Assembly (NCBI GenBank): GCA_016935315.1
Contig: JAFGRD010000122.1
Location: 1-33,346, forward strand
Length of the DNA: 33,346 nt
Source of the DNA: Pirellulales bacterium
Lineage (GTDB): Bacteria; Planctomycetota; Planctomycetia; Pirellulales; Thermoguttaceae
Direction: 5' to 3'
Shown here one piece after another: positions 9,824-14,882 of the stretch (position 1 is the first letter of the stretch; every line of letters begins with the position of its first letter). Under the pieces are notes generated by a model, which saw only the letters and a list, made by a program, of their open reading frames with translations, made no database searches and was not told the origin of the DNA. The translations under genes were made by a program, and so were the position numbers.

Positions 9824-11251
<1,428 letters not shown>

Positions 11252-11278
11252 CCTCGTTCCGTCCACTTTCCGGGCTCC

Positions 11279-12181
11279 ATGGATATCGAAGCACTCCGCA
11301 TTTTTTGCAGCGTCGTGCGGAACCAGAGTGTCTCCCTCGGCGCGTCGGCCCATCGGATCAGCCAATCGGCGGCGACCCAACGCATCAAGCGGCTGGAAGA
11401 ACACTTCGGCTGCAAGTTGCTCGACCGCCAGCGGCGGCCCTTTGCGCTGACGCCCGCGGGAAGACTCTGCTATCAAAAGAGCCAGGAAATCCTCGACCGG
11501 TACGACGCCATGGAGGGGCGGCTGCGCGCCCTCAGCGCCGAGGTCGCCGGCAACCTCCGCGTGGCGGCGATTTATTCGGTGGGGCTGTACACCTTGCGCG
11601 AAAGCATCGAGCAGTTCATGCGGAAGTATCCGAAGGTGAACGTCCGCCTGGAGTACCGACGCCCCGGCGACGTCTACGAAACGGTCTTCAACGACGGCGT
11701 CCATGTGGGTATCGTCTCCTACCCGCTGGCTTCGGGCCAACTCAACGTGGTGCCCCTGGCAGACGAGGAAATGGTGCTGGTGTGCCATCCCAAGCACCGG
11801 TTGGCGGGCCGCGACACCGTGGACGTGCGAGACCTGGCCGGCGAAGACTACGTGGCGTTCGAGCGCGACTTGCCCATCCGCAAGGAAACGGACCGTTTCT
11901 TCGAGCAGCATGGGATCCAAGTGAATCCCGTGATGGAATTCGACAACGTCGAGACAGTCAAGGACGCCGTGGAAATCGACGCCGGCGTGAGCGTCTTGCC
12001 GGAACCCACCGTGCGAAAAGAGGTCCGCAGCGGCCGGCTGGCTGCTGCCCGCCTGCTCGGAGGCAATCTCTGCCGTCCGCTCGGCCTCATCCACCGGGAC
12101 CGCAAAACCCTGCCGACGGCGGCGCTGAAGTTCATCGAAGTAGTCGCCCGTGAATCGCCGGCAGGGGACGGCGGCAAGTGA
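11279..12181 (+). CDS. LysR-family transcriptional regulator
   Basis: A 300-residue protein of standard LysR size. Residues 1-60 form the winged helix-turn-helix, with SLGASAHRISQSAATQRIKRLE as the recognition region and the typical LLDR..RPFALTPAG wing. Residues about 90-290 form the effector-binding periplasmic-binding-protein fold. It starts 27 bp after gdhA in the same direction with no visible terminator between them, so it is probably read from the gdhA transcript. No strong Shine-Dalgarno sequence precedes the ATG. The context suggests control of gdhA or the downstream nfn genes, but the effector is unknown; LysR proteins more often sit divergent from their targets. Confidence 0.88.
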   Translation: MDIEALRIFCSVVRNQSVSLGASAHRISQSAATQRIKRLEEHFGCKLLDRQRRPFALTPAGRLCYQKSQEILDRYDAMEGRLRALSAEVAGNLRVAAIYSVGLYTLRESIEQFMRKYPKVNVRLEYRRPGDVYETVFNDGVHVGIVSYPLASGQLNVVPLADEEMVLVCHPKHRLAGRDTVDVRDLAGEDYVAFERDLPIRKETDRFFEQHGIQVNPVMEFDNVETVKDAVEIDAGVSVLPEPTVRKEVRSGRLAAARLLGGNLCRPLGLIHRDRKTLPTAALKFIEVVARESPAGDGGK

Positions 12182-12261
12182 CTTCCCGGCGCGGCAAAGC
12201 CGCCGAGGCCTCGCGGCGTCTCGCGTCGCCGCCCGGCCCGGTGGAGCGGGAATCCTCAGCC

Positions 12262-12331
12262 GGTGGGGAGGGAAAAAGCAAGGCCACTGCGCGTCCTTCC
12301 CCATTTCAGATATACTCAAGTTGTTCTCTTG
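12262..12331. mobile_element. Degenerate two-hairpin element remnant (copy D)
   Basis: The stretch aaagcaaggccactgcgcgt matches copy A hairpin 2 (around 145-164) with two differences. It is followed, as in copy A, by an end resembling its terminal repeat (tatactcaagttgttctctt at 12311-12330 against 178-197). A short imperfect hairpin remains (about 12264-12271 with 12295-12303). The left half is not convincing; a gcggcaaagccgc-type hairpin near 12190 could be the other hairpin. It lies in the 177-bp gap between the LysR gene and nfnA. Confidence 0.45.
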
Positions 12332-12358
12332 CCGGTCCCCAAGGCGGTGTCCCGTACC

Positions 12359-13198
12359 ATGTTCAAGATCCTTCGAAAGACCGAGTTGGCGCCCGATATC
12401 TGGGAAATGGAAGTGGCGGCGCCCCAGATCGCGCAGAAGGCCCGGCCCGGACAGTTCGTCGTCGCCATGGCCGACGAACGGGGGGAGCGTATCCCCTTGA
12501 CAATCGCCGATTTCACTCCCGACGCAGGGTCGATCACCCTGGTGGTGATGGTCGTGGGAACCAGCACGGTGAAGCTCTCGCGGCTCGGGGAAGGCGACAA
12601 GCTCTACGCGTTGATCGGCCCCCTGGGGCACGCTTCCCGGATCGAGCCGTGCCAGGCGGTCGCCATGGTGGCAGGCGGCGTGGGCGCCGCGCCCGTCTAC
12701 CCGATCGCCAGGGCGTTCCACCAACAGGGAAGCCGCGTGATCACGATCCAGGGTGCCCGTCACAAAGCGCTCCTGTTCTGGACCGATCGGCTGGCCTCGG
12801 TCAGCCAGCAGCACCAGGTCACGACCGACGACGGGTCGGCCGGCCACAAGGGGCTCGTCACCGAGACGCTGAAGGAGGTGCTGGCGGCCGACACGCAGAA
12901 GCAGATCGGCTGTGTCTATGCCATCGGGCCCACGCCCATGATGGAGTTCTGTGCGAAGACCACGGAACCGTTCGGGGTGAAGACGGTCGTCAGCCTGAAT
13001 TCGATCATGGTCGACGGCACCGGGATGTGTGGTGGGTGCCGTGTCGAAGTCGGCGGCCGGACGTTCTTCACCTGCATCGACGGTCCGGAATTCGACGGCC
13101 ATCAGGTGAATTGGGAGTTGCTCACGGCGCGCCAGAAAACCTATCGCCACCAGGAAAACTGTGCGTTCGAGAAGACGCTGAATACGCGGACCGGCTGA
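12359..13198 (+). CDS. nfnA: NfnA-type FAD/[2Fe-2S] subunit of ferredoxin:NADP oxidoreductase
   Basis: A 279-residue protein of the ferredoxin-NADP-reductase superfamily, also annotated as SudB. The N-terminal FAD-binding barrel carries ERIPLTIAD, and the NAD-binding half carries AGGVGAAPVYPIARAF. The C-terminus has a [2Fe-2S] site with C224, C227 and C239. Asp219 sits where dihydroorotate-dehydrogenase reductases have a fourth Cys; three Cys plus one Asp is the arrangement described for NfnA. ATG 12359 is preceded by AAGGCGG. Nfn couples NADH and reduced ferredoxin to NADP+ reduction by flavin electron bifurcation. The partner gene nfnB follows, now separated by an inserted element. The alternative is a sulfide dehydrogenase beta subunit. 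Confidence 0.8.
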   Translation: MFKILRKTELAPDIWEMEVAAPQIAQKARPGQFVVAMADERGERIPLTIADFTPDAGSITLVVMVVGTSTVKLSRLGEGDKLYALIGPLGHASRIEPCQAVAMVAGGVGAAPVYPIARAFHQQGSRVITIQGARHKALLFWTDRLASVSQQHQVTTDDGSAGHKGLVTETLKEVLAADTQKQIGCVYAIGPTPMMEFCAKTTEPFGVKTVVSLNSIMVDGTGMCGGCRVEVGGRTFFTCIDGPEFDGHQVNWELLTARQKTYRHQENCAFEKTLNTRTG

Positions 13199-13230
13199 TC
13201 CGAGTCCCGGGCGGGGGCATAACACCCAGA

Positions 13231-13463
13231 CTGCACTTTCTGAAAAAACGGCACTTAGGCCTATATGAAAGAGGAAAGGCGCGCAGCGGCTTGGCTCTTT
13301 CATGGCGATTCTTCCCGCGTCAGGCCCTGCCGGCGGGTTGTCGAAAAACCATGCGTCCGATGGCAGGACACGCAGCGATGCGAAGTCGAAACTGAGGGAA
13401 ACGCGGCGACGCCGCCTTTCCCCCAATTTGTAGGCCTAAGTGCCGTTTTTTCAGAAAGTGCAG
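13231..13463. mobile_element. Complete 233-bp MITE with perfect 33-bp inverted repeats (copy B)
   Basis: Positions 13231-13263 and 13431-13463 are perfect 33-bp inverted repeats (outer bases ctgcactttctgaaaaaacg). The 7-base sequence acccaga flanks the element directly on both sides (13224-13230 and 13464-13470), as expected for a target-site duplication. Inside are two hairpins: atgaaagag with ctctttcat (13265-13273, 13295-13303), and a stem around 13396-13425 with a cggcgacgccg centre. Both resemble the hairpins of copy A in the reverse order. There is no coding capacity, so movement would need a transposase elsewhere. It sits between nfnA and nfnB and supplies the bases just upstream of the nfnB start codon. 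Confidence 0.88.
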
Positions 13464-13470
13464 ACCCAGA
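13464..13470. repeat. Right copy of the 7-bp target-site duplication
   Basis: acccaga is repeated at 13224-13230 on the other side of the element. Removing one copy with the element restores a 31-base nfnA-nfnB gap. The last base of this copy is the A of the nfnB ATG. Confidence 0.85.
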
Positions 13471-14882
13471 TGAACAATCCCCAGAAGCTCCCGCGAGTGG
13501 CCATGCCCGAGCGGCCGCCCCAGGAGCGCATTCATAGTTTCGACGAGGTGCCGCTGGGCTACAGTCTCGAGCAGGCTCAGAGCGAAGCGTCGCGCTGCTT
13601 GCAGTGCAAGAAGGCGCTTTGCCGCGAAGGGTGTCCGGTCCAGGTGGATATTCCGGCGTTCGTCGGGCTGATCGCCGAAGGCAAGCCTCTCGAAGCGGCG
13701 GCCAAAATCAAGGAGGCCAACTGCCTGCCGGCGGCGTGCGGGCGCGTCTGCCCTCAGGAAACTCAATGCGAGAACTACTGCATCCTCGCCAAGCAAGGCG
13801 AGCCCGTGGCGATCGGCAACCTGGAACGATTCGCCGCCGAGTATGAAAGCGAACACGGCGACTGCCGGCCCGCGCCCAAGGCTCCGCCAACCGGCAAGCG
13901 GGTGGCGGTCGTAGGAGCCGGGCCCGCCGGGCTTACGGTCGCCGGCGACCTGGCTCGCCGGGGCCACCACGTGACCGTCTTCGAGGCCTTCCACAAGGCG
14001 GGCGGCGTGTTGATCTACGGCATCCCCGAGTTCCGGCTGCCCAAACGCATTGTCGAGCGGGAAGTACAGTATCTTCGCAGCCTCGGCGTGCGATTCGAGC
14101 TGAATCAACTCGTCGGCAGGACGGTCGGCGTCGACGAACTCCTCGATCGAGAGAATCACCGGAGCTACGACGCCGTGTTCTTGGGGGTCGGCGCCGGCCT
14201 GCCGGCCGTGATGAACATCCCCGGCGAAAACCTCGGCGGCGTCTATCTCGCCAACGAGTACCTGACTCGCGTCAATCTGATGCGGGCGTACGATTTTCCC
14301 AAGTACGACACGCCGGTCGTCCGCGGAAAGAGCGTCTCTGTAATCGGCGGCGGCAACGTCGCCATGGATGCGGCGCGCACGGCTCGGCGGCTCGGGGGCC
14401 AAAGCGTGTCGATCGTCTATCGCCGTTCCATGCAAGAACTGCCCGCCCGAGCCGCAGAGGTCCACCATGCCCGCGAGGAAGGAATCGAGTTCAAAACCCT
14501 TTGCTCGCCGCTGGAGTACGTCGGCGACGATCGCGGCATGGTCCATCAGGTTCGGTGCCAGGTGATGGAATTGGGCGAGCCGGACGATTCGGGGCGCCGT
14601 CGGCCGATCCCCAAAGAGGGGGAGCAAGTCGTTCTGGATACGGATCTGGTGATCATCGCCATCGGCGCCAACGCCAATCCTACCGTGACTCGCCAGACGC
14701 CCGGGCTGGTGCTCAACAGCCGCGGATACATCCAGGTCGACCACAACGGCGTGACAAGCTGCCAGGGCGTTTGGGCAGGCGGCGACGTGGTGACCGGAAG
14801 CGCCACGGTGATCTCGGCCATGGGGGCCGCCAAGGCCGCGGCGAGCGATATCCACCGGTATTTGTGCCGCGGCGGCGAATAG
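13470..14882 (+). CDS. nfnB: NfnB-type subunit / NADPH-dependent glutamate-synthase-like flavoprotein
   Basis: A 470-residue protein of the glutamate-synthase small-subunit family (GltD/SudA/NfnB). The N-terminus carries cysteines for two [4Fe-4S] clusters: C43, C46, C51, C55 and C85, C90, C94, C100, C104. An FAD Rossmann motif, VAVVGAGPAGLTVAGDLA, starts near residue 145, and an NADP(H) motif, VSVIGGGNVAMDAA, follows. Pairing with the NfnA-like gene favours a soluble NfnAB complex over a glutamate synthase beta chain; no large glutamate-synthase subunit is present. I chose ATG 13470; an in-frame GTG at 13440 would lie inside the terminal repeat of the inserted element. Only a weak AGAAAG precedes the ATG, and it comes from that repeat. 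Confidence 0.85.
   Translation: MNNPQKLPRVAMPERPPQERIHSFDEVPLGYSLEQAQSEASRCLQCKKALCREGCPVQVDIPAFVGLIAEGKPLEAAAKIKEANCLPAACGRVCPQETQCENYCILAKQGEPVAIGNLERFAAEYESEHGDCRPAPKAPPTGKRVAVVGAGPAGLTVAGDLARRGHHVTVFEAFHKAGGVLIYGIPEFRLPKRIVEREVQYLRSLGVRFELNQLVGRTVGVDELLDRENHRSYDAVFLGVGAGLPAVMNIPGENLGGVYLANEYLTRVNLMRAYDFPKYDTPVVRGKSVSVIGGGNVAMDAARTARRLGGQSVSIVYRRSMQELPARAAEVHHAREEGIEFKTLCSPLEYVGDDRGMVHQVRCQVMELGEPDDSGRRRPIPKEGEQVVLDTDLVIIAIGANANPTVTRQTPGLVLNSRGYIQVDHNGVTSCQGVWAGGDVVTGSATVISAMGAAKAAASDIHRYLCRGGE

Follow-up and report, generated by a model that had tools for sequence, protein, structure and literature searches.

A MITE inserted at the nfnB start codon of a Pirellulales bacterium and its dispersed repeat family

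RESULTS

An inverted-repeat element separates two intact nfn genes

The window analysed here is the whole stretch of 33,346 nucleotides that constitutes contig C168 of its genome, G000 (7.1 Mb in 172 contigs). On the + strand it carries nfnA (12359-13198), encoding the small FAD/NAD-binding subunit of Nfn transhydrogenase, and nfnB (13470-14882), encoding the large glutamate-synthase-like subunit. These names, given in the original prediction, hold: the best structure matches of the nfnA product were 5jca_S and 4ylf_A, with which an NCBIfam profile agreed (NF004862, 376 bits), and those of the nfnB product were 4ylf_B and 5jca_L, the NfnI large subunit. The nfnA start was assigned by a home-made codon-usage gene caller, and its TGA stop codon occupies 13196-13198. 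The nfnB ATG (13470-13472) is supported by a homologue (locus L103) that likewise starts MNNPQK, and the nfnB frame is uninterrupted, and both genes are intact. Glutamate dehydrogenase and LysR regulator genes lie upstream of the pair, and histidine kinase and sigma-54-type response regulator genes downstream. No close second copy of nfnB was found in G000, where the six other matches were 34-51% identical and the longest-matching ones 35-43%. An antisense open frame of 1185 codons (9869-13426, - strand) runs opposite glutamate dehydrogenase, lysR and nfnA and is probably a high-GC artefact.

The element occupies 13231-13463 and contains no gene. As predicted, it is bounded by two exactly complementary 33-bp terminal inverted repeats (left, 13231-13263, + strand; right, 13431-13463, - strand) and flanked by a perfect 7-bp duplication, acccaga, at 13224-13230 and 13464-13470 (7 of 7 bases); the right copy ends on the A of the nfnB ATG. 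The 233 bp that had been described as the gene-free body is in fact the length of the whole element, 167 bp of which lie between the repeats. Because nfnA stops at 13198, the two genes are now 271 bp apart; without the element the distance would be the 31 bp originally given. Two inner hairpins lie within the body: hairpin A (13265-13303, + strand), found by inverted-repeat listing, folding and covariation, and hairpin B (13388-13430, + strand), found by folding and covariation. The right repeat includes an in-frame GTG at 13440, from which NfnB could start with ten additional residues. An Rfam scan of the window gave no match at gathering scores. With a length below 500 bp, 33-bp terminal inverted repeats, a flanking target duplication and no transposase gene, the element has the anatomy of a miniature inverted-repeat transposable element (MITE). 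REP/RAYT elements are associated with a Y1 tyrosine transposase and are not known to duplicate their target, so the duplication argues against that identity.

The terminal repeats belong to a dispersed, mainly intergenic family

The genome search with the terminal repeat that had been proposed as a check revealed a dispersed family: a 31-base repeat pattern with up to 3 mismatches gave 41 matches in G000, and the reversed-pattern control gave none. Among the loci examined, the only full-length elements with both repeats on one contig were the nfnB copy and a 233-bp copy at C139:9610-9842, which is 93% identical to it; the others were mostly single ends, truncated copies or contig ends. Copy numbers in G000 are lower bounds, with 13 of 140 candidates scored in the full-element comparison. 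A genome of another genus in the same family (G005) holds cousins of 230-231 bp that have the same repeats, a different interior and duplications of 7-8 bp. A 29-base form of the repeat occurred in 3 of 396 genomes of the order, and its outer 22 bases in 8 of 119 genomes of the family, both counts including G000, which is the sole representative of its genus among the 119.

Duplications of 6-8 bp flanked 9 of the 11 elements with both ends, two of them (C54 and C97) G-rich and weak, while random flank pairs satisfied the rule at a rate of 0.003. The two that failed were C139 (6 bp with one mismatch) and C87 (5 of 7). Nearly all ends (78 of 79; 57 in G000 and 22 in G005) lay outside called genes or overlapped them by no more than 15 bases, as judged with the home-made gene caller and that tolerance; locus L237 yielded no end at the thresholds used, and L038 was omitted because it duplicates the end at L248 position 54. 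For comparison, 20 such G000 loci are about 80% coding. The single exception was the right end of the nfnB copy itself, where the caller chose the GTG start. Together, the repeats, the duplication and the family copies make it nearly certain that a MITE inserted between nfnA and nfnB at the nfnB start, as originally proposed.

By eye, family ends adjoined gene starts and gene ends without preference, and targeting of start codons was rejected on this ground. The exact landing on the nfnB ATG therefore looks like chance plus survival. At two other G000 loci, L040 (C8:57205) and L032 (C51:104254), most of the space between two co-directional genes is taken up by a single repeat end, with an ATG of the element either falling on the start of the downstream gene or sharing its frame; these start codons were possibly supplied by the element.

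Two further groups of short repeats were seen in the same surveys. The second family has ends like TTATTGAYGCTTGCA / TGTGCAAGCGTCAATAA (L176 at G000:C97:105981, L231, L232 and L250) and has apparently inserted into a repeat of the first family at one place. The third has ends like ACTCGCAAAAGAACAAGTTGGGCAT (L240 at G000:C78:197560, and the flanks of L032, L034, L036 and L041) and is nested in or adjoins copies of the first family, forming clusters of MITE-like repeats.

Minimal palindromic copies and paired inner hairpins

The shortest form of the family consists of the two terminal repeats only. At G005:C839:8478-8535 (L175:979-1036) they make a perfect 58-bp palindrome with the 7-bp duplication AGGAAAA on both sides, and G000 contains two diverged palindromes, at C11 (duplication 6 of 7) and C87 (5 of 7). 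Such two-repeat palindromes are a new observation. They may mean that this unit can itself transpose, or else that the interior was deleted from longer elements once these had inserted.

Pairing of the inner hairpins was assessed in an alignment built from sequence alone (A2), with three G000 copies, one of them truncated, and four G005 copies. Hairpins A and B (the latter in columns 159-201) were paired in 90.5% of the cells. Changes on both sides of a pair were seen at 10 pairs, a number attained by 9 of 500 shuffles (mean 7.4), and in 23 cells, attained by 0 of 500 (mean 10.3; slid controls 1-8), the slid control being one in which the structure, drawn from a G005 copy, is favoured. On the other side, further pair types numbered 15, below the 19.1 of the shuffles, and some pairs did not hold in one of the genera (columns 45/65 and 50/60 in G000). 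As far as the alignment tells, the hairpins retain pairing between the genera through compensatory changes, again a new observation, and with two lineages these represent few independent events. Both selection on the hairpins and quasi-palindrome repair during replication would produce such covariation.

The age of the nfnB copy is bounded, and it probably lies outside the latest burst

The A-side ends on contigs C37, C44, C75 and C172 are identical over 84-85 bases, and the B-side ends on C24, C48, C138 and C107 over 85 bases, each at a contig end. Because eight contigs break inside identical ends, G000 probably holds about four further near-identical young copies on which the assembly was broken. 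The nfnB copy differs from this youngest burst at 5 of 86 and 5 of 87 end bases and is therefore probably not part of it. None of its 40 paired positions (33 arm pairs and 7 duplicate pairs) has changed, which puts an upper limit of about 3.7% per site on the divergence accumulated after insertion (95%, 80 sites), with part of the right duplicate constrained as a start codon. For the proposed recent insertion, the unchanged arms and duplicates thus set a bound on age, and the differences from the youngest copies qualify it.

The same element at this place in relatives would have suggested a long-lived regulatory sequence. The terminal repeat was absent from the best 80 named nfnB loci among the matches listed, which come mostly from distant organisms; its best match there had 10 mismatches in 31 bases. 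The 80 loci included no congener, and the proposed comparison showed no exact empty site among them.

IS701-like elements share the outer ends of the repeat

In related genomes, insertion sequences that encode an IS701-like transposase have termini matching the outer 16-22 bp of the MITE repeat. Its outer 22 bases agreed at 22/22 positions with the terminus of a G005:C663 element and at 21/22 with that of a G067:C142 element, and both elements have a transposase frame about 100 bases inside the end. The G067 transposase (455 aa) matched PF13546 and the NCBIfam model NF049999 (IS701_3; 261 bits, cut-off 170). Similar ends were present at contig breaks in G025 and G033. An end within 3 mismatches of CTGCACTTTCTGAAAA was visible at 16 of 27 transposase-match loci (two being the same place), a count made without a shuffled control. 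A search of 392 genomes across the phylum added one further transposase hit (E up to 1e-70), and a plasmid collection gave one. Plasmid pPL62-2 of Planctomyces sp. SH-PL62 carries a relative with CTGCACTTTC ends and a perfect 6-bp duplication. Among 13 loci examined for duplication length, five showed both ends of the IS701-like element; the plasmid copy had a clear duplication and the other four no clear one. The IS701-type element ISDge5 gives a 5-nt duplication according to the passage of PMC6843628 that describes it, so the lengths compare as mostly 7-8 bp for the MITE, 6 bp (6/6) for the IS701-like relative and 5 nt for ISDge5.

A transposase in the same genome is usual for such a family, not required. 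No IS701-like transposase was found in the G000 assembly, whose 172 contigs may miss repeats, and the mobiliser is therefore deduced from other genera. G005 has one match (C663:2795-4052), which is split into two frames near a contig end and may be broken or misassembled. From the shared ends, we consider it likely that the MITE was moved in trans by an IS701-like DDE transposase.

Predicted consequences for nfnB expression

The original prediction listed several consequences of the insertion: uncoupling of the subunits by splitting a tight operon, displacement of the nfnB ribosome binding site, termination at a hairpin and a new promoter. The prior 31-bp gap was indeed ordinary: in 74 of 80 nfn loci both genes could be placed, with a median gap of 25 bp and a range of -14 to 255, apart from one gap of 1231 that is probably misplaced. 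Gaps of 112-255 bp, however, occurred in 13 of these 74 loci, and 271 bp alone therefore need not uncouple nfnA from nfnB. Loss of a strong ribosome site is doubtful because GGGGGC, 11 bases before the ATG, is a poor match. Consensus scanning revealed no promoter match in the element and no + strand terminator in 12900-13700, that is, no hairpin with a short loop and a T-run behind it on the strand that is transcribed, long-loop hairpins being invisible to the scan; the other strand had one terminator match against 1.1 expected. Neither a terminator nor a promoter is thus favoured. At L050 and L055, the latter labelled Pirellulales, short repeats of other kinds seem to be present in the nfnA-nfnB gaps (159 and 144 bp), and the junction may thus be one where repeats insert again and again.

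Folding pointed to a different effect. The folding energy of the element RNA was -128 kcal/mol, where shuffled sequences averaged -82; the terminal repeats contributed most of this, and the core alone, folded as DNA, had a z of -2.8. Freeing positions -18 to +10 at the nfnB ATG was estimated to cost 23.4 kcal/mol when the element is present, but 11.1 when the flanks are joined and 4.1 in an RNA starting after the left arm. Seven further genes in the window gave 9.2-14.8; these estimates disregard translating ribosomes, co-transcriptional folding and RNA-binding proteins. The best supported effect, not proposed earlier, is that on read-through RNA the duplex of the two repeats is predicted to hide the nfnB start. 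This would make initiation there poor and is expected to be accompanied by RNase III cutting. We put the chance that this sequestration has a real effect on nfnB at somewhat below even.

DISCUSSION

The reading we prefer starts from a non-autonomous MITE, whose anatomy, family and target duplication are seen directly, and which was probably moved in trans by a transposase that we infer to be an IS701-like DDE enzyme acting on ends that begin CTGCACTTTCTG. A 7-base staggered cut at acccaga between nfnA and nfnB would have restored the nfnB start codon exactly. On a transcript reading through from nfnA, the 33-base repeats could form a long duplex that stops six bases short of the nfnB ATG. Such a duplex would hinder ribosome loading at nfnB and offer a substrate to RNase III; NfnB would then come mainly from RNAs that start inside the element or have already been cut. 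The account as a whole, comprising MITE insertion, an IS701-like mobiliser and a start hidden by the duplex, seems to us probable, by a shade less than the mobiliser taken by itself.

The strongest alternative is that the insertion was neutral, tolerated because the start codon was restored and the genes remained intact, with no important effect on expression. The lack of preference of family ends for gene starts or ends (by eye), the wide variation of nfn gap lengths and the missing promoter and + strand terminator matches all agree with it. However, opening the nfnB start is predicted to cost about 12 kcal/mol more than it did before the insertion, and more than for any of the seven other genes. 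We regard neutrality as a serious contender that falls a little short of an even chance.

A mobile transcription terminator, in which the paired repeats with an A-run and a T-run stop transcription before nfnB, is unlikely. The 58-bp palindrome does fold into one hairpin with an inner stem followed by TTTTTT, but 167 bases separate the arms in the 233-bp form, the scan gave nothing on the + strand and a chance-level count on the other, and nfnB would need another promoter where none was found. That the sequence is a long-lived regulatory element of the nfn operon and no insertion, for which the pairing of the inner hairpins between genera might speak, is contradicted by the perfect duplication, the copies at many unrelated loci and the missing repeat at the best 80 named nfnB loci listed, and is highly improbable.

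A bolder extension of the preferred reading can be imagined, in which the element is more than two ends left over from a deletion, selection has kept the hairpins in two genera, the family is a mobile RNA module carrying a repress-and-process signal for gene junctions, the bare 58-bp palindrome is its smallest transposing unit, and the start-codon lock at nfnA-nfnB is opened by RNase III or internal transcription. We offer it as speculation with a small chance of being right.

The results give Planctomycetota a MITE family whose mobiliser is probably IS701-like. Among the papers that a library search on MITEs, IS701 and Planctomycetota returned, no description of such a MITE was found in titles or in the relevant parts of PMC9208149 and PMC3733652. 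The nfnB copy offers a natural experiment on how a long RNA duplex lying a few bases ahead of a start codon affects the operon of one two-subunit enzyme, and the covarying hairpins together with the 58-bp palindromes let one ask which parts a MITE needs.

Several known systems are comparable. The planctomycete IS701-like insertion sequences (NCBIfam IS701_3) share the terminal CTGCACTTTCTGAAAA with the MITE, and one relative has a 6-bp duplication, whereas the MITE has no transposase, a longer exact repeat of 33 bp, a different interior and mostly 7-8 bp duplications. Among the small elements treated in the relevant passages of PMC10969869, the Correia element of Neisseria is likewise a small MITE near genes; RNase III is reported to cleave transcripts at its terminal repeats, and promoters and an IHF site have been described in it, whereas the nfnB element has no promoter match. 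The same passages describe QMITE1 and QMITE2 of Coxiella, of which full-length and shortened copies coexist, down to 39 bp; the shortest form of the present family is the 58-bp two-repeat palindrome, once perfect and with its own 7-bp duplication. Also described there is the Chunjie MITE of Geobacter uraniireducens, which resides in a different host and is alike by description: it is about 235 bp long, has terminal repeats, target duplications and many partial copies, is mostly intergenic, and one copy of it disrupts an operon. The nfnB element is thus a further MITE of an already known bacterial kind.
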